52,888 bases of DNA from Lentilactobacillus dabitei (lineage in GTDB: Bacteria > Bacillota > Bacilli > Lactobacillales > Lactobacillaceae), in assembly GCF_019061365.1 (NCBI RefSeq), contig NZ_JAHPPD010000007.1:1-52888 (forward strand), written 5' to 3'. The notes under the pieces were generated by a model. The model was not told where the DNA came from, searched no databases, and was given only the letters and a program-made list of their open reading frames with translations. Position numbers and translations under genes: made by a program. Shown here in pieces: positions 1-52,484 of this stretch (positions are counted from its first letter, which is position 1; each line of letters starts with the position of its first letter).

Positions 1-78
1 AATTGACTACTATATTTTGTCACAAGAAAAGCCCCACAATCATTAGACTTACTTGTCTAACAATTGTAGGGCACTTCA
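1..78 (-). mobile_element. Probable insertion-sequence terminus at the left contig end
   Basis: This stretch is identical, in reverse complement, to 52809-52886 at the other end of the window. Read on the minus strand it begins TGAAGTGCCC and contains an imperfect hairpin (arms near 29-72) followed by a T-rich run, a structure often found just inside IS ends where it blocks outside transcription. No transposase is present because the window stops here. The junction at 78/79 falls inside a hairpin repeat element, which suggests insertion into that element. The IS family is not identified. Confidence 0.55.
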
Positions 79-137
79 GGTTTGGATTTTTGAATAGGGT
101 GCTTATGTGCAAGTTATTGCTTTGCGGAGCGGTCCTA
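78..137 (+). repeat. Hairpin repeat element, 3' half only
   Basis: Only the loop and the 3' half of the dispersed hairpin family is present: the loop sequence GGTTTGGATTTTT, the GGTGCTTATGTGC-like arm, then GCTTTGCGGAGC and a GTCCTA tail. The 5' half is missing exactly where the putative IS terminus begins, so the element was probably truncated by IS insertion. Its tail faces the tail of the next, complete copy, 13 bases away. Confidence 0.7.
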
Positions 138-149
138 TTTCTATATAGA

Positions 150-12270: not shown

Positions 12271-12382
12271 GAGTGTGAAGCTAAGCGGTTAGGAACTGGA
12301 ATATAAGTCGCTTACTGGGAAAACTCCTGGGCTTGGAGTTTTGCCAGTAAGTGCTTATATGTAAGTTCCTGCTTGGCTGAAC
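12271..12382 (+). repeat. Hairpin repeat element, complete copy
   Basis: Arms are AGCTAAGC with GCTTGGCT (one G-T pair), AGGAACT with AGTTCCT, ATATAAG with CTTATAT, CTTACTGG with CCAGTAAG and AACTCC with GGAGTT. All pair without mismatch. The head GTGTGAAG is typical for the family; the usual tail after the last arm is replaced. Confidence 0.85.
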
Positions 12383-12391
12383 ATGTTTAAT

Positions 12392-16207: not shown

Positions 16208-16255
16208 TTAGGACAACTTCTCCAAGCGGACTTCTAACCGCTTGGAGCTGGTCAC
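16208..16255 (-). repeat. Miniature hairpin element
   Basis: Read on the minus strand this copy keeps the head and tail (CTCCAAGCGGTTAG and CCGCTTGGAG, then TGTCCTAA) but lacks all inner arms and the loop. It looks like an internal deletion derivative of the hairpin family. It sits between the Cof gene and the first secreted paralog. Confidence 0.7.
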
Positions 16256-17153: not shown

Positions 17154-17984
17154 ATGAAAAAGTTTTGGGGAATGGTAATGATTGCGGTCACAGTTGGATT
17201 TTTATATACAGCGGCAAATTCACCTGCGCGGGCATCATGGATGAGCGGCACACAAAAGTGGTTTACGACGATTGGAAAGTATCCGGATGCCAATGAGTTT
17301 TTATATGCGGTGAAGAATCCCAACAAGAATGCTTACATGTGGAACTATAACCATACGAAACGCATTCATAATCTAAAGAATTATAAAAATACGACTTGGT
17401 ACGTCACCCACGGGATTAAAAAGGGTAAATCTGTGTATTATCGCATCACCAATTACAATTCCACGGTTAAAGGATTAGTTTGGAGTGGCTATCTCCGACA
17501 CTTGAAGTCATGGGGTGCTAGAGCTTTTAAAACATCAGATGAATTCAAGCAGTATGTCAAAACGTCTCCTTCAGCCAAACTTACTCGGGCAATTATGAAA
17601 CAATTACCAAATATACCATTGGATTATCAACTTTCACGGTACGCTAATGGACAATATGGGGATTTTCCAAAGACTATTCCGGGTTATTCTGATATCACAT
17701 CTTTGGGAACGCTCAATCTACCTAAGAAGGATTTTGCAACAATCAAGAACTTTCCCAATAACTACGATCTAGATCAAGCCAACTATGAACAGCAGTTGAA
17801 TTGGTACTGGGCATTGACATTTGGTCAGCCGGTCGCACCAAGAGCTGCTAAGTTAAAAGAAGCCCTCAAAGTTAACAATATCGATTTAAACGATTATAAA
17901 TCCGGTGACTGGGTCGTTGGTATTAGTGTGTTTGAAGGCATTGCAAATGGAACGGTAATTATTGCGAGGAAGAGTGCGGAGTAA
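17154..17984 (+). CDS. Secreted protein with SH3-like surface module (paralog 2)
   Basis: The 276-residue product is a clear tandem duplicate of the preceding protein. It has a signal peptide ending near ARASW, then YMWNYNHTKRIHNLKNY, YYRI, STVKGLVWSGYL and the same C-terminal half with LTRAIMKQLPNIP and DFATIKNF. The intervening sequences differ, so the pair has had time to diverge. Only 42 bases separate the two, so they are probably co-transcribed. The ATG at 17154 follows AAGGGTGG. Its last codons and stop (GAG TAA) lie inside the head of a hairpin repeat element. Confidence 0.75.
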   Translation: MKKFWGMVMIAVTVGFLYTAANSPARASWMSGTQKWFTTIGKYPDANEFLYAVKNPNKNAYMWNYNHTKRIHNLKNYKNTTWYVTHGIKKGKSVYYRITNYNSTVKGLVWSGYLRHLKSWGARAFKTSDEFKQYVKTSPSAKLTRAIMKQLPNIPLDYQLSRYANGQYGDFPKTIPGYSDITSLGTLNLPKKDFATIKNFPNNYDLDQANYEQQLNWYWALTFGQPVAPRAAKLKEALKVNNIDLNDYKSGDWVVGISVFEGIANGTVIIARKSAE

Positions 17985-18080
17985 AGCGGTTAGGAACTGG
18001 AGCACAAGTCTCCTTTGGTGGAAATCCTGGGTTTGGATTTTTGTCAAAGGTGCTTGTGTGCCAGTTCCTGCCTGACGTAG
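17972..18080 (+). repeat. Hairpin repeat element overlapping a stop codon
   Basis: The head GTGCGGAGTAAAGCGGTTAG provides the last codons and stop of the upstream secreted-protein gene. Arms are AGGAACTGG with CCAGTTCCT, ACAAG with CTTGT, CCTTTG with CAAAGG and AAATCC with GGATTT. The outermost arm is weak in this copy. Confidence 0.8.
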
Positions 18081-18245
18081 CACATTTGCGCTAGGTAATG
18101 GCGGACCAATTCCCGGTTTTGGAATTTGTGCTGGTGGTGCTTACATGCAGGTTGCTGCCTGATGTAGCACATTTGCGCTAGGTAACGGTCGATTAAATCC
18201 TAGGTTTGGATTTTTGCCAAAGGTGCTTATGCGCAAGGTTGGCAT
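18081..18245 (+). repeat. Two tandem truncated hairpin elements
   Basis: Two further loop-plus-3'-half copies follow: AATTCC/GGAATT with GGTGCTTACATGCAGGTTG, and AAATCC/GGATTT with GGTGCTTATGCGC. Between them a segment of about 34 bases at 18068-18102 recurs nearly unchanged at 18156-18190 (core GTAGCACATTTGCGCTAGG). This makes a small tandem array. Confidence 0.65.
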
Positions 18246-24788: not shown

Positions 24789-24845
24789 ATAAGCGAAAAC
24801 GGCAATGCATTCTGTTTCTGGGAATGCATTGCCGTTTTCGCTTAT
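24789..24845. terminator. Perfect 24-base-stem terminator hairpin
   Basis: The arms at 24789-24812 and 24822-24845 are perfectly complementary over 24 bases, with AAAAC and GTTTT inside the stem, between convergent genes. The core (GCAATGCATTC/GAATGCATTGC) also occurs at 50063 and, shortened, at 10538, so this is a dispersed hairpin family. Confidence 0.75.
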
Positions 24846-24871
24846 GTTGTAGGATCAAATCGTTGATCTCA

Positions 24872-31072: not shown

Positions 31073-31536
31073 TTTTCTTCAACAACTCCTATCAATGTAC
31101 AGTGAATACTTTAACAAGAGATTGTTGCAATCGTGTAACAAACAATTTGCAATGCAGTTAAAAGAAACTTAAGGAATGAAACATTCATTGTGATATTGCA
31201 AATTGAACGCTCTTAAACGTTATAATGACGGGAATAATCAGTTTCAATTAATATGACAAACTAGCCGACTGGTCGCCACAACTTTGACTGGTTTTCGGGT
31301 GGATTAATGTAAAATAACCCATTTTGTTGGTCAGTGAGCAAATCAATAACCGGCAGCTGCCCAATTGTTGGGATCAATCAAGTCAAGATTTCAACGGGTT
31401 GGCAATGATGACTCGCCTTAATCAGAACGACAGACTGATTCAAATCTACATAGTTCTGTAACTTAAGAACAGCAAAAAAGAAGCCGAGGCAAACGATCAA
31501 TTTTGCTTTCAGCTTCCTTGAGAAGGGTAACTATGA
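31073..31536. other. 464-base gap with a possible gene relic
   Basis: The right part (about 31260-31470) on the minus strand reads as one frame of about 70 codons, including QNYVDLNQSVVLIKASHHC and, after a single TGA, LIPTIGQLPVIDLLTDQQNG. No start signal or family is recognised, so it may be a decayed gene or chance. The left part should hold the NlpC/P60 promoter. Confidence 0.35.
31480..31516 (-). terminator. Terminator of the MMPL gene
   Basis: On the minus strand GAAGC and GCAAA arms pair with TTTGC and GCTTC with a small internal loop, followed by six T. Confidence 0.8.
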
Positions 31537-35442: not shown

Positions 35443-36060
35443 TTGCAGAAAAAGAGCTGGCACGTTAGTTTAATAATACTCGCTACGGTCTTGGTCATCG
35501 TGGGCGGATTGGTGGTTAGAAACAACTTATCTCAGCAAAGCCAGCAAACGCGGAATATCCCAACTTTGACAAAAAAGTCGACTCAATATTTTTCCAAGCA
35601 GCAAAAGGAAAGCTTCATTGACCAGATCGGCACACCGGCGATGGCCTTGTATAGAAGAAACCTGCAAATTTTACCCAGCGTGGTGATTTCACAGGCGATT
35701 CTGGAATCGCAGTTTGGAACGTCACTGCTGTATAAGACGGCTAACAACCCATTTGGGGTGAAAGGCACTTACAATGGCCGATCAGTGACGTTCTATACGA
35801 GAGAAGTCGAGCATGGTAAATCGATCAAAGTGTTGGCTCAATTCAGAAAGTATCCAAGCTTAAGGGCAGCATTGATGGATCACAATCATTTGGTTGCTGA
35901 AAAGTTCATCAGGCATAAAAATATCATGAGCTACCGCACATCAACGAATCTGTTACAACAGAATGGCTATGCCACCGATCCACATTATGCTAACAAATTG
36001 AATCATATTATTGTAAAATATCAGTTGTATCAATATGATTTGAAGGCGATAAATGAGTGA
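35443..36060 (+). CDS. Membrane-anchored glucosaminidase (GH73-like)
   Basis: The 205-residue protein has an N-terminal membrane anchor and one GH73-like hydrolase domain. The catalytic glutamate is in VVISQAILESQFGTS, followed by NNPFGVKGTYNG and the YPSLRAALMDH segment. It should cut the glycan strand between N-acetylglucosamine and N-acetylmuramic acid. There is no binding repeat, so it may stay anchored. TTG start behind AGGGGAAA. The 40-base gap after the amidase stop contains a TATAAT, so it may have its own promoter. Confidence 0.88.
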   Translation: MQKKSWHVSLIILATVLVIVGGLVVRNNLSQQSQQTRNIPTLTKKSTQYFSKQQKESFIDQIGTPAMALYRRNLQILPSVVISQAILESQFGTSLLYKTANNPFGVKGTYNGRSVTFYTREVEHGKSIKVLAQFRKYPSLRAALMDHNHLVAEKFIRHKNIMSYRTSTNLLQQNGYATDPHYANKLNHIIVKYQLYQYDLKAINE

Positions 36061-36225
36061 AGTTAAGCGAGAGCGATCGATAAAGTCACCACAATATAAG
36101 TCGAAATTACCCATTTGTCAGATTGAAAATAAACGAATATTAATATCACTCACATTTTATAAATGGTAGAATAAAAGCTAAGGAACCAGTAACCACACAG
36201 ACACATACTTCGGAGGGATGCTAAA

Positions 36226-42348: not shown

Positions 42349-42524
42349 GGTTTTAGGACAGCTCTACAAAGCAGGCATCTGCGTATAAGCACTGGGTTAC
42401 ATAGATTAATGGTGCTCCGCAAAGCAGTAATCTGCGCGTAAGCACCTTCTCCAAAAATCCCAGAATCGGGGATTCCCGGAGAAGGAGACTTACACTCCGA
42501 TTACTAACCGCTTTGCTACGCACA
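42349..42524 (-). repeat. Hairpin elements between purA and guaC
   Basis: Read on the minus strand, a full element starts immediately after the purA TAG stop: head GTGTGCG, then GCAAAGC with GCTTTGC, AGTAATC with GATTACT, GTGTAAG with CTTACGC and CCTTCTCC with GGAGAAGG. A second, partial 3' half with a CTGTCCTAA tail follows at 42349-42410. All arms of the full copy pair. Confidence 0.85.
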
Positions 42525-43805
42525 CTACCACACTTTTTTAACAACATTAGTCTGCTCTCTGTCAGGGCCGACCGAGAAAGTTGCATAAGGAACACCGACT
42601 GCTTTTTGGACATGGTTCAAATAATTCTGGGCATTGGCTGGTAATTCATCAAATGTGTGACACTTGGTGATGTCTTCGTCCCAGCCAGGGAGTTCTTCAT
42701 AAACGGGTTTGTAATTGTCGAGTTCCCTTAAAGTAGCGGGATAATGATCAATCTTTTGACCGTTTAATTCATAAGCAACACAGATTTTTAAAGTTTTAAT
42801 GCCAGTTAAAACATCTAAACAGTTCAGAGCTAAATGGGTATAACCACTGACTCTGGCGGAATGTCTGAGAACCACACTGTCAAACCAGCCGATTCGACGA
42901 GGCCGTTTCGTCACAACACCGTATTCGTGGCCGACTTCTCGGATGTGATCGCCGGTTGCGTCCTTTAGTTCAGTTGGGAAGGGACCTTCGCCAACTCGTG
43001 ATGTGTATGCTTTGCAGACGCCGATGACATTTTTGATCCGGTTAGGACCAATGCCAGTTCCGACGGCTGCGCCACCTGCGCTTGGGTTCGAAGAAGTGAC
43101 AAACGGATAAGTCCCGTGGTCGACATCTAGCATGACACCCTGAGCACCTTCAAACAGCACGTTTTTATCATCATCTAATGCGTTGTTAATTACATAGGAA
43201 GCATCAATGACGTATGGACGGATCCGATCGGCGTATTCATTGTATTCATTAAAGATCGTATCGAAGTCCAACGGCTTAGCATCATAGATTTTTTCTAGCA
43301 ATTCATTTTTGGCCTTGAGATTCCTGCGAAGTTTTTCTTCAAATGATTTTTTGTCAATTAAATCAGCAATTCGAATTCCGATTCGTTCGTATTTATCCAT
43401 GTAGGCTGGGCCAATTCCCTTATTGGTTGTTCCAATCTTGGAATCTTTCTTTTGTTCCTGCAGGCCGTCGAATAGAATATGGTAGGGCATGATTACCTGT
43501 GCCCGGTTGGAAATCCGGAGGTTCTCAGTGCTGATACCATCTTTCTTCAAATTGTCCATTTCGTTGATCAAAGATTTGGGATTAACCACCACGCCGTTAC
43601 CAATGACACTGTACTTTTCCTGGTCAAAAATGCCTGACGGGATCAGTTGCAAGTGGTAACTATGGCCGTTAAATACAATGGTGTGACCGGCATTATCGCC
43701 GCCTTGATAGCGAGCGATAATATCTGCACTTTGGCCGAAGAAATCGGTGATTTTACCCTTCCCTTCGTCGCCCCATTGACTTCCAACAATCACAATAGAT
43801 GACAT
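42525..43805 (-). CDS. purA: Adenylosuccinate synthetase
   Basis: The 426-residue enzyme joins IMP and aspartate with GTP to make adenylosuccinate. It begins [21 protein letters not shown] with the catalytic Asp and the P-loop [28 protein letters not shown] and [11 protein letters not shown] are also clear. Start is supported by GAGGTG six bases upstream. It diverges from purB, the next step of the AMP branch, across a shared control region. Confidence 0.96.
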
Positions 43806-44033: not shown

Positions 44034-45329
44034 ATGATAGATAGATATTCTTTACCAGAAATGAGCAAAATTTGGTCCCTGCATAATCAATATGACGCAT
44101 GGCTTAAAGTAGAAATTGCGATTGATGAGGCTTGGGCTAAGCTAGGTAAGATCCCCGCTGAAGACGTTGAAAAGATTAAAAAGAATGCGAAGTTTGATGT
44201 CGATGGCATCGCTGAAATTGAGGCGGTCACCCATCACGATATTGTTGCCTTTACTCGAGATGTTTCAAAGTCACTTGGTCCGGAAAAGAAATGGGTCCAT
44301 TATGGTGTCACCAGCACAGATGTTGTGGATACAGCTTATGGCGTTCGGATTAAGCAAGCCAACAAAATTATTAAGGAAGATATTGATCATTTTATCGATG
44401 TAATCGCTAAGCAAGCGAAGAAGTACAAGGATACGGTCATGATTGGCCGGACCCACGGTGTTCAAGCTGAGCCAACGACTTTTGGGCTGAAATTAGCCCG
44501 TTGGTACTCAGAAATGAATCGGAATAAGCGCCGGTTTGCAACTGCATCAAAAGAATTGGAAGCTGGCCAAATTTCTGGCGCCGTTGGAACTTTTGCCAAT
44601 GTGCCACCGTTTGTTGAACAGTATGTGTGTGATTCACTTGGATTGCATGCTCAGGAAATTACCAGCCAGATTCTGCCGCGAGATTTGCATGCCGATTATA
44701 TTTCAACCCTGGCATTGATTGCCACCAGCTTGGAAGAGTTTGCGACTGAAATCCGTGGTTTACAACGTTCTGAAATTCATGAAGTTGAAGAGCATTTTGA
44801 TGCTGGTCAAAAGGGCTCTTCCGCAATGCCTCACAAGAAGAATCCAATTGGCTCAGAGAATATCTGCGGGTTGGCAAGGGTGGTTCGTGGGCACATGATT
44901 ACCGCCTATGAAGATGTCCCATTGTGGCATGAACGAGATATTTCGCATTCATCCGCAGAACGAATCATTATTCCAGATACATTGATCTTGCTAGATTACA
45001 TGCTCCATCGTTTCTCCCGAATTTTGGAACGATTAACAGTCTTCCCAGAACGAATGAAGAAAAACATGGGCTTAACGTATGGCTTGATTTATAGCCAACG
45101 TGTCATGTTGAAATTGATTGATTCAGGCATGACCCGAGAACAGGCATATGATTTAGTTCAACCACTGACCAAAAAATCATGGGATGAAGGTGTTCAATTC
45201 CGTGACTTGGTCGAAGCTGATAAGAAGATTACTGATGCCTTAAGCGAAGATCAAATTGCTGACGCCTTTGATTATCATTATCACATTCGTCATGTGGATG
45301 AGATATTTGCCCGAGTGGGATTGGAATAA
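44034..45329 (+). CDS. purB: Adenylosuccinate lyase
   Basis: The 431-residue enzyme splits adenylosuccinate to AMP and fumarate, and SAICAR to AICAR. The fumarase-superfamily signature [11 protein letters not shown] is near residue 262. TSTDVVDTA and [14 protein letters not shown] hold the catalytic histidines. AAAGGAAA precedes the ATG. A tandem of two hairpin elements begins three bases after its stop codon. Confidence 0.96.
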
Positions 45330-45332
45330 ATA

Positions 45333-45453
45333 AGTGAGCGGATCCAAGCGGTTAGGGATCGGAATGTAAGTCTCCTCGAACAGAAATTCCGGTTTTGGGA
45401 ATTTTTGTTCGAGGTGCTTACATGCAGATCCCTGCTTGGAGGAGCTGTCCTAA
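45333..45453 (+). repeat. Hairpin repeat element, first of a tandem pair
   Basis: Head GTGAGCGG, arms CCAAGC with GCTTGG, GGGATC with GATCCC, ATGTAAG with CTTACAT, CCTCGAAC with GTTCGAGG and AAATTCC with GGGAATTT, tail GAGCTGTCCTAA. All arms pair. It begins three bases after the purB stop. Confidence 0.92.
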
Positions 45454-45454
45454 A

Positions 45455-45578
45455 ATAAGTGAGCGGATCCAAGCGGTTAGCAACCGGAGCGTAAGCCGCC
45501 TCCGAGGGGAATTCCTGATTCTGGAATTTTTCTCGGAGGTGCTTACGTGCAGGTTGCTGCTTGGAGGAGCTGTCCTAA
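45455..45578 (+). repeat. Hairpin repeat element, second of a tandem pair
   Basis: Head and tail are the same as in the first copy. The inner arms differ: CAACC with GGTTG, GCGTAAG with CTTACGT (one G-T pair), CCTCCGAG with CTCGGAGG and GAATTCC with GGAATTT. The change between neighbours is matched on both sides of the stem. Confidence 0.92.
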
Positions 45579-45618
45579 ACCCCAGTCCAACTTCTTTCCA
45601 ATCACAATAAAAAAATAC

Positions 45619-45671
45619 AAGTTCCACAAGCCAGATTTTAAGCAATTGTTGGCTTGTGGAACTTTTTTTAA
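45619..45671 (+). terminator. Terminator downstream of purB
   Basis: AAGTTCCACAAGCCA and TGGCTTGTGGAACTT form a 15-base perfect stem, followed by seven T. Confidence 0.9.
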
Positions 45672-45679
45672 AAGAATTA

Positions 45680-45708
45680 TTGACAATTCAGTTGAAAAGG
45701 CTTACATT
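45680..45708 (+). promoter_or_regulatory. Promoter of the GH13-MFS unit
   Basis: TTGACA (45680-45685) and TACATT (45703-45708) are separated by 17 bases. The operator begins two bases after the -10. Confidence 0.8.
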
Positions 45709-45709
45709 A

Positions 45710-45731
45710 ATTACGCAATCGTTTGCGTAAT
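45710..45731 (+). promoter_or_regulatory. LacI/MalR-type operator
   Basis: ATTACGCAA and TTGCGTAAT are perfect nine-base arms around TCGT, with the central CG of LacI-family sites. The core GCAATCGTTTGC matches the MalR consensus GCAANCGNTTGC. It should block the promoter start site. Confidence 0.82.
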
Positions 45732-45762
45732 TTTTAAATACTGAATAGAGGAGTGATATTCT

Positions 45763-47439
45763 TTGGACAATTGGTGGAGGAATGCTGTTATTTATCAAGT
45801 ATATCCTGCAAGCTTTCAAGATAGCGATGATGATGGCATCGGTGATTTAAAGGGAATTACGAGCAGGCTAGATTATATAAAAAAATTGGGGGTCGATATT
45901 GTTTGGTTAAGTCCAATATACGAATCACCGCAAGTTGATAATGGCTATGATATTTCTGATTATCAGGCAATTAATCCAACGTTTGGTGATATGGCGGACT
46001 TCGATGCATTACTTGCCAAGGCACATTCACTAGGCCTCAAAATTATGATGGATCTAGTGGTTAACCATACTTCGGATGAGCATAAATGGTTCCAAGAATC
46101 ACGTAAGGGTAAAGATAATCCATATCGAGATTACTACATTTGGCGAGATGGAAAGAATGGTGAAAATCCAAATAACTGGGGATCCTTTTTTACGGGTCCA
46201 GCTTGGAAATATGATGAAGAAACTGATCAGTATTACCTGCATCTATTTGCCCCCCAACAGCCGGATCTAAATTGGGAAAATCCCAAGATGCGTCATTCAA
46301 TTTATGACATGATGAACTGGTGGGCTGATAAAGGAGTCGACGGTTTTCGAATGGATGTCATCAATTATATTTCTAAGCCGAAGGGACTCCCTGATGGTAA
46401 AAAAGCTGATCACGAAAAGTATGCTAATCCTGAGCCGCTCGTTGCCAACGGTCATCGGATCCACGAATTCTTGCAGGAAATGCACCAAAATGTGATGAGT
46501 AAGCATGATTTGGTAACTGTCGGTGAAATGCCCGGTGTAAATGTAACTGAAGCTCGACAATATGCCAACTTCGATGACAAGGAACTTAACATGGTTTTTC
46601 AGTTTGAGCACATGGGGTTAGATGGCAGTGATAATCCAACGTTGGGTCGTTGGGGAGATCGTAAAGCATCTTTGAAAGATTTGCGGGCTAATCTAACCAA
46701 ATGGCAGGAAGCGTTATCAGGAACAGCATGGAATTCGCTTTATTGGGATAATCATGATCAGCCGAGGGTGGTTTCTCGCTTTGGGGATGATTCGACTGAG
46801 GAGAATCGAGTGCTTAGTGCCAAAATGCTTGCAACCATGCTTCACATGCAACAAGGAACGCCTTATATCTTCGAAGGTGAAGAAATTGGAATGACTAACG
46901 CATATTTCAAGTCAATTGATGACTATGTTGATATTGACTCGATTAACGCCTATCAACAATTCGTTGAAGATGAACATCTCATTGATAGTAAATCAATGAT
47001 CAAATATTTGGGACTTCATAGCCGAGATAATGCGAGAACACCAATGCAGTGGAGTTCGGGTAAAAATGCCGGCTTTTCAGCACATGAGCCTTGGGAACAC
47101 ATGAATTCAAATTATAAAACGATCAATGTCGAACGAGCGCTCGCAGATCCCGATTCAGTCTTTTATTACTACCAAAAGTTAATTGAGTTGCGACACACGC
47201 TGCCGGTAATTACTGACGGTAAATATCAATTGGTTGCTGGCAATGAAAATGATGAGGAAGTCTATGCCTTCACACGGAAAAATACCGAGATGACCCTACT
47301 AGTTATTTTAAATGACACAGCACATGACTTAAATCGTCATTATGATGCTCCAAAAGATGCAAAATTATTAATTAGTAATTACGCGGATGACCTTGGTGAT
47401 CACCTGCGTCCATTTGAGGCAAAAGTTTACTCTTATTAA
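45763..47439 (+). CDS. GH13 alpha-glucosidase, oligo-1,6-glucosidase-like
   Basis: The 558-residue protein is a GH13 enzyme of the oligo-1,6-glucosidase/dextran glucosidase group. The nucleophile Asp is in GFRMDVINYI (residue ~197), the acid Glu in TVGEMPG (~255) and the third Asp in WDNHDQPR (~331). Val after the nucleophile (DVI) fits alpha-1,6 rather than alpha-1,4 preference, which usually has Ala. It has no signal peptide and so is intracellular. TTG start behind AGAGGAG. The MFS transporter follows in the same transcript. Confidence 0.92.
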   Translation: MDNWWRNAVIYQVYPASFQDSDDDGIGDLKGITSRLDYIKKLGVDIVWLSPIYESPQVDNGYDISDYQAINPTFGDMADFDALLAKAHSLGLKIMMDLVVNHTSDEHKWFQESRKGKDNPYRDYYIWRDGKNGENPNNWGSFFTGPAWKYDEETDQYYLHLFAPQQPDLNWENPKMRHSIYDMMNWWADKGVDGFRMDVINYISKPKGLPDGKKADHEKYANPEPLVANGHRIHEFLQEMHQNVMSKHDLVTVGEMPGVNVTEARQYANFDDKELNMVFQFEHMGLDGSDNPTLGRWGDRKASLKDLRANLTKWQEALSGTAWNSLYWDNHDQPRVVSRFGDDSTEENRVLSAKMLATMLHMQQGTPYIFEGEEIGMTNAYFKSIDDYVDIDSINAYQQFVEDEHLIDSKSMIKYLGLHSRDNARTPMQWSSGKNAGFSAHEPWEHMNSNYKTINVERALADPDSVFYYYQKLIELRHTLPVITDGKYQLVAGNENDEEVYAFTRKNTEMTLLVILNDTAHDLNRHYDAPKDAKLLISNYADDLGDHLRPFEAKVYSY

Positions 47440-52361: not shown

Positions 52362-52484
52362 TTAGGACTGCTCCGCAAAGCAGAAAGCTACACATAAAAA
52401 ACTCTGCCAAAAATTTCAGAACCGGGAATTTCTGGCAGAGGAGACTTATGCTCCGCTTTCTAACCGCTTTGCTCCGCACACTTA
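52362..52484 (-). repeat. Hairpin repeat element, complete copy
   Basis: On the minus strand: head GTGTGCGG, arms GCAAAGC with GCTTTGC, AGAAAGC with GCTTTCT, CATAA with TTATG and CTCTGCCA with TGGCAGAG, then tail GGAGCAGTCCTAA. All arms pair. It lies tail-first after the small membrane protein gene. Confidence 0.88.

Follow-up and report, generated by a model that had tools for sequence, protein, structure and literature searches.

The intergenic DNA downstream of purB carries two neighbouring hairpins of about 120 bases whose arms differ in sequence, and the question raised by this locus is whether the fold itself is maintained, or whether the element spreads in a way that copies one arm from the other, and to which kind of element such a design belongs. 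The window, that is, the whole stretch of 52,888 nucleotides analysed here, comes from a 2.81-Mb draft genome (G000), of which it forms contig C192. Lentilactobacillus rapi DSM 19907 encodes an identical purB protein and shares with the window 94.9% DNA identity over 4.2 kb.

The two copies reported in the initial annotation were recovered on the + strand by a covariance model (R1, with rough E-values) built from an alignment (A1) of 63 different units. The first (E1, 45334-45453; 140 bits, E 1.7e-38) starts 4 nt past the purB stop codon and is composed of the helices P0 (AGC/GCT), P1 (TCCAAGC/GCTTGGA), P2, P3 and P4, the apical loop and the tail GTCCTAA. The second (E2, 45459-45578; 136.5 bits) follows head-to-tail after a 5-nt linker, and has an identical P1 and different P2-P4. 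Folding of the pair was compared with shuffled sequences, none of which was as good (z -10.55; 0 of 200).

The five further copies proposed at 150, 12271, 17972, 42410 and 52362 were all confirmed by the model (E 1.1e-33 to 6.8e-25). Unit D (42406-42525, - strand, 123.5 bits) lies at the end of purA, where its first G completes the TAG stop codon, and a partial unit continues after it down to 42353. Unit F (52362-52481, - strand, 120.9 bits) has the outer helix TGC/GCA. Unit A (150-268, - strand, 112.7 bits) adjoins a truncated unit at 1-138 (+ strand, model positions 52-120, 23.5 bits), which is inverted relative to it and is cut by the window edge. Units B (12271-12390, + strand, 104.9 bits) and C (17972-18089, + strand, 93.5 bits) are diverged; apparent partial units follow unit C to about 18240, and at the site of unit B L. 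rapi has no more than a partial unit. A common head, loop and tail around differing middle arms, as had been described, holds for E1 and E2, whereas the tails of units B and C have diverged. The training set of A1 includes 45334, 45459, 52362 and 150 and excludes 12271, 17972 and 42406.

A 48-nt derivative at 16208-16255 (- strand, 31 bits) keeps the head, P1 and tail. It is a remnant without the inner hairpin, apparently through deletion of the hairpin body, and L. rapi has a longer, diverged hairpin there (L244, contig C66 about 31230-31341). Altogether the covariance model search gave seven full and two truncated units in the window, in agreement with the earlier count of at least seven copies; the remaining six matches are weaker reverse-strand hits to units already counted. 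Two other intergenic spots deserve mention. About 85 bases at 36060-36220 are missing from L. rapi; the window has no R1 unit there, L. kisonensis holds two units at the matching site, and the spot may be a decayed unit site. At about 24790-24860 there is an inverted repeat with arms of ~25 bases (CATAAGCG.. / ..CGCTTATG), diverged in L. rapi and unlike the hairpin units.

The unit of about 120 nt is built from five nested helices. Read from 5' to 3' it has the head GTG, P0 (AGC/GCT), a GGA/GGA-like loop and P1 (7 bp); a bulge GGTT (GNTT) lies between P1 and P2 (7 bp), and inward from P2 come a GGA/GCA loop, P3 (8 bp), P4 (17 bp) and an apical loop of about 7, the unit ending with the tail GTCCTAA. 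An A directly precedes the head in 98% of 116 arrays. Among the 63 units P0 (columns 4-6 with 116-118) is paired in 98.4% of cells; its columns 4/118 changed on both sides in 5 of the 63, which was not significant in the covariation test described below (E 4.65), and the outermost helix reached significance (columns 4 and 119) in the alignment across species and genera. Head and tail had been described as not complementary in the manner of terminal inverted repeats. Contrary to this, they do pair over a short length, through the 3 bp of P0 inside the ends, although reading of the 63-unit alignment gave no terminal inverted repeat of the classical MITE kind.

Is the fold maintained? In the 63 units 96.5% of the cells are paired with their true partners (36-47% in slid-partner controls), 27 of the 42 pairs show two-sided changes, and double-change cells numbered 404 against 119.9 +/- 9.2 after shuffling (0 of 500 shuffles). 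Since shuffles ignore kinship, a tree-aware null was used in which the substitutions of each column were re-placed at random on a FastTree tree. This test imitates R-scape and is not R-scape; its threshold was E<0.05, and its tree ignores the recombination seen among units. The significant covarying pairs that the initial annotation would seek were found: 8 in the 63 units of one genome, all structural and none off-structure; 13 in 244 units, all structural; and 22 of the 42 structural pairs together with 1 off-structure in a set of 25 distinct sequences, which represent 16 loci of other species and genera. In this cross-species set 37 of the 42 pairs changed on both sides, in an alignment (A3) fitted to the model, which therefore favours the structure; it keeps 26 of 41 matches, and of the 15 dropped 13 were hits to the reverse strand of units already included and 2 were weaker hits on the same strand. 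The matched changes of the two arms, initially noticed by eye, lie far above chance in the shuffle and the tree-aware tests, and these tests and the cross-species alignment also uphold the proposal insofar as the fold is maintained. Covariation traces one skeleton across the order with most helices rewritten, and hence shows long-lasting conservation of the shape.

The family is abundant in Lentilactobacillus. At E<=0.001, with the best 150 candidates scored per genome, at least 150 copies each were found in G000, L. rapi, L. kisonensis and L. fungorum, 106 in L. raoultii, 81 in L. parakefiri, 50 in L. hilgardii, 40 in L. sunkii, 36 in L. parabuchneri, 33 in L. otakiensis and 28 in UBA5807, and none in Lentilactobacillus sp. 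Marseille-Q4993. Across the Lactobacillaceae 126 of 397 genomes gave matches, and these came from 21 of 40 genera (best 9 candidates per genome scored). A sample of the order (best 12 candidates scored) gave matches in 20 of 295 genomes, 8 of them outside the family, in four other families. The distant units examined have rewritten arms and the same nesting, and most carry a GC-GNTT-A ... TGC signature, which L273-L275 and L277-L279 do not have. Tandem units with 125-nt spacing occur in another family of the order (L282 509-753, L281 508-878), where two neighbouring units of L282, and likewise the first and third of L281, are nearly identical. Downstream of purB in L. parakefiri (L086, after 6293) there are long hairpins, almost perfectly paired, which resemble the units in their AAACCCA/TGGGTTT loop and have other flanks; they are perhaps a sister repeat family.

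Matches of 116 nt, at ~93 bits, were found in several genera. The six units of this length that were compared (L186, L188-L191, L266) are nearly identical, and this version lies antisense just before a gene, at 23 nt in L188. Plasmid copies are present in 8 records, 7 of Lactiplantibacillus and 1 of Lentilactobacillus. A match to E1/E2 on plasmid H1 (NZ_CP035568.1, locus L265) adjoins an annotated substrate-binding protein gene, near sugar transporter and alpha-glucosidase genes. The 116-nt version looks horizontally spread. No record of the phage collection matched, and a phage origin has no support.

Presence and absence at the same site were also observed. The window, L. rapi, L. raoultii, L. 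otakiensis, L. sunkii, L. parakefiri, L. hilgardii and L. parabuchneri have no unit between purA and purB, where L. kisonensis carries 2 units and L. fungorum 3. Between purA and guaC, L. parabuchneri likewise lacks units that several other species have, and L. kisonensis C79:51407 provides a further clear filled/empty pair. No consistent target duplication was seen in these few pairs, whose flanks are about 72-91% alike. The initial annotation would look for insertion polymorphism between strains; no fresh insertion between close relatives was caught, and the differences seen between G000 and L. rapi are mostly changes within existing sites.

Two kinds of mobilising enzyme were considered and rejected. 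Mobilisation by a Y1/RAYT protein (REP/RAYT, IS200/IS605) would require the Y1 transposase (PF01797), which gave hits in 2 of 15 Lentilactobacillus genomes and none at E<=0.001 in the other 13; G000 showed contig-end fragments only. A reverse-transcription origin (retron, DGR, group II intron) is countered by RVT_1 (PF00078) being present in 4 of the 15 genomes, one of which (G013) has no unit in the survey. L. kisonensis and L. fungorum, two of the genomes richest in copies, gave no hit for either domain.

With moderate confidence we consider the units to be small mobile repeats, non-autonomous and of the EFAR, BOX or bcr1 type, which form an old family in Lactobacillales and are recognised by the fold of one strand. 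This reading draws on the covariation, the wide spread, the presence and absence at sites and the plasmid copies, and on the strand bias and module exchange described below. Against it stand the missing Y1 and RVT_1 in two of the richest genomes and the lack of a clear target duplication, of a terminal inverted repeat and of a fresh insertion. Moreover, the antisense placement of the arrays resembles function or targeting rather than random insertion.

The arrays stand at gene borders, and their antisense placement is sharp. An antisense ribosome site and start lie within 60 nt of the left end of the array in 34 of 76 arrays of G000 and 15 of 33 of L. rapi; both sets were drawn from the 116 arrays and include shared sites, and are therefore not independent. 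With a stricter gene criterion, applied to the 69 of 109 arrays with flanks of at least 600 nt (shared sites again included), an antisense start was present no more than 250 nt to the left of 35 arrays, and 28 of these 35 starts lie 16-26 nt from the array, with a mode of 20-21. At the right end there is no such peak, 9 sense starts being scattered with 2 within 16-26 nt. Where an array comes after a sense stop, the distance between the two is often just 0-9 nt (8 of 17). Among 30 loci of other genomes antisense starts were present at 4, in each case 19-23 nt away, and this is probably a low count as several of these loci start at an inner unit. Some arrays follow terminators, as judged by eye (L176, L180, L185). 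An insertion rule "after CCTAA" gained no clear support: TTA stands beside the ribosome site in 21 of 130 background genes, and the set held 6 filled genes only.

These distances speak for the main rival, according to which the units are cis-acting RNA: hairpins in 5' leaders and 3' ends would control mRNA stability or translation, for instance as RNase III substrates or by forming an obstacle immediately before the ribosome site. The leader mRNA, however, corresponds to the minus strand, and RNA folding energy is better for the + than for the - strand in 62 of 63 units. The + strand is also favoured by the G.U bias, as outside G.U-rich pairs there are 200 G.U against 93 A.C, and this bias is found in every gene context (85:32 in antisense before a start, 37:18 after a stop, 59:33 elsewhere). 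The excess is uneven among substitution types, being strong for C>T (98:31), weak for A>G (47:30) and 30 T>G against 6 A>C, so mutation bias, perhaps on the single-stranded + strand, may contribute to it. In addition, the number and type of units at one gene often differ between close relatives, antisense stops on the right are scattered (5 of 24 within 3 nt), and no terminator-like hairpin with a T run was found in 45200-45800 in a scan of loops of 3-8, the unit tail being GTCCTAA. We regard control by cis-acting RNA as unlikely. The placement before start codons may be due to targeting or to selection.

A second group of observations concerns the arrays and the exchange of modules. Counting neighbours up to 60 nt apart, 157 have the same orientation and 3 the opposite; two of these three are one site common with L. 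rapi and one is an overlapping hit. The linker measures 3-7 nt in 130 of the 157, and gene cassettes such as separate the attC sites of integrons are absent between the units. Growth of arrays mainly by tandem duplication was rejected, as only 5 of 208 units have their nearest relative in their own array and neighbours are on average no more alike than random pairs (0.763 vs 0.760, n=105). A likeness of 0.95 or more is, however, commoner among neighbours than in random pairs (2.9% vs 0.6%), with examples in C172, L. otakiensis and L282.

The two arms of P1, ~90 nt apart, are tightly linked (NMI 0.65), against 0.20 for P1 and the adjacent P2 arm, and after correction the 17 strongest column pairs are all base pairs, as are 21 of the top 40. 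At matched sites of G000 and L. rapi likeness is 0.91-0.95 for the outer ends (random 0.84) and 0.74-0.79 for P4 (random 0.69), in a comparison which left out the arrays of the window record, though L001 covers E1/E2. The clearest cases of an inner hairpin replaced within a kept outer stem are L203/L222, L195/L228, L002/L217 (first unit) and L007/L240 (last unit), and other matched sites keep the whole unit (e.g. L069/L221, L030/L220). In 23 site pairs, 9 of which match on one flank only, 42 units are listed and 40 were scored; 14 of the 40 have a counterpart at least 0.93 alike and 21 fall below 0.85. If just the 14 site pairs with both flanks alike (>=0.75) are taken, the respective counts are 7 and 13 of 22 scored units. 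After purB itself the window and L. rapi carry different units at one spot. Four of 244 units have a broken helix whose two arms both occur intact in other units, which is a mark of recombination. Exchange between copies does seem to affect the inner hairpins, and it would be gene conversion that begins and ends within the conserved internal loops.

Homologous recombination could be all there is, the units being an old family that has lost its mobility and whose copies overwrite each other by gene conversion; the two arms of a pair would move jointly because the tracts span entire inner hairpins. Such a history would suit the module linkage, the inner replacements within kept outer stems, the average dissimilarity of array neighbours and the chimeric units. 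It leaves unexplained how the arms came to diverge in a matched way at the outset, as well as the covariation of all five helices across species and genera, and just 13 of the 244 units have a helix with three or more non-standard pairs. We judge recombination on its own to be quite improbable.

Integron integrases recognise the folded strand of attC. A cassette-like, site-specific system might work here in an analogous way, with a putative recombinase that recognises the folded strand and moves units from one array to another. The conservation of structure rather than sequence, the strand preference and the head-to-tail arrays would fit such a system, as would the reversal of unit order at two sites (L049/L213, and L006/L223 with one flank matching only). 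These reversals could be a coincidence of common unit types, however, and the outer stem, sometimes with the linker, stays while the inside changes, which favours conversion over exchange of whole units. This reading seems very doubtful to us.

The way in which the pairs change bears on the question raised at the beginning. Among the 244 units, those 1-3 bases apart differ at 33 base pairs, 31 on one side and 2 on both sides, and the two-sided share climbs with divergence (6, 18, 29, 54 and 68%). Fresh changes are thus mostly in one arm and compensated later, and the data fit one-sided mutation followed by compensation. The initially suggested spread by copying of one arm from the other, in which template switching would rebuild an arm and pairs would change jointly without selection, could claim the 2 double changes, but it is hardly credible against the 31 single-sided ones and the build-up of double changes with divergence, and it would also erase the conserved internal loops and the near-fixed G.U pairs.

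If the units are mobile repeats, the fold would persist because only foldable copies are mobilised or re-used as donors. A putative enzyme would act on the single-stranded + strand, and inner hairpins would be exchanged by gene conversion, possibly started by breakage at the hairpin tip. A more far-reaching version, which we put forward tentatively and consider improbable, is a shape-recognised DNA system: a putative Lactobacillales enzyme would bind the folded single + strand whatever the sequence of the arms, dock arrays at a constant position ~20 nt upstream of starts in antisense and exchange hairpins between arrays. If true, this would amount to an order-wide attC-like logic without integrons.

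Does the family correspond to a named element? At the gathering score Rfam gave no match in the window, and by E-value only sub-threshold microRNA/snoRNA matches; on five relatives its single match was a T-box in L288, outside the unit. No published description of a Lactobacillus repeat of such design was found in the literature searched, subscription journals being mostly outside the search; PMC4666352 and PMC13155455 contain no word beginning with "lactobacill", and a table in the accessible part of PMC2267715 names L. johnsonii. The initial remark that no named element of this design was known agrees with Rfam and these searches, but Enterococcus, where EFAR is described, has relatives of the units. 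EFAR repeats are ~170 bp long, are assembled from many sequence types, occur as filled and empty sites and fold into an L-shaped pair of stem-loops. Like the units described here they are non-coding structured repeats, found in the same order, and the E. faecalis unit L288, which folds with the same skeleton and was missed by R1, has by eye a matching nesting and a GC-GTTTA ... TTGC signature. L274, matched weakly by R1 (41 bits), has GTGTTCA/TTAC instead of the signature, and relatives of it are carried by Enterococcus plasmids, which make up 73 of the 84 matching records. Plasmid records labelled E. coli (OL539428.1) and Pseudomonas aeruginosa (NZ_CP151545.1) carry a unit of Enterococcus type, for which mislabelling, contamination or transfer are possible. 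The Enterococcus relatives may belong to EFAR; the comparison is by description only, and an L-shaped pair of stem-loops differs from the one long nested hairpin found here.

bcr1 is a mobile repeat, structured and non-coding, of 100-200 bp, that makes a 5-bp target duplication. It resembles the present units in structure, in this size range and in the lack of coding capacity, but, again by description only, it belongs to another order, and its target duplication is not seen here. BOX, EFAR and similar small structured repeats have mostly been described per genus, and are often judged parasitic. The accessible part of PMC3733652 names EFAR for Enterococcus and cites bcr1 for the Bacillus cereus group. 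According to the same part, REP/BIME elements also comprise many palindromic units, often in tandem groups, but REPs have 20-40 bp and a GTAG or CGTC tag (PMC3733652), against ~120 nt here. Moreover, RAYT is a Y1 transposase, and 13 of the 15 genomes here have no Y1 at E<=0.001. The BOX elements of Streptococcus are, in the accessible part of PMC3049150, short structured intergenic repeats judged parasitic. They are likewise modular, with end modules around exchangeable middles, and in S. suis different ends enclose the same middle (PMC3049150, same part). BOX is reported to have terminal inverted repeats and target duplications and to grow by repeating boxB inside one element (PMC3049150, same part), whereas here whole units of ~120 nt are repeated and no ends of that kind were seen.

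We conclude that an order-wide family of structured repeats is real, and that its members are most likely non-autonomous mobile elements held to their shape, with exchange of modules. The set supplies hundreds of natural compensatory variants, shared sites with swapped insides and a sharp placement before start codons, which opens the question of parasite or regulator to direct testing. With a curated family, at least 150 loci could be annotated in each genome of the richest Lentilactobacillus species.
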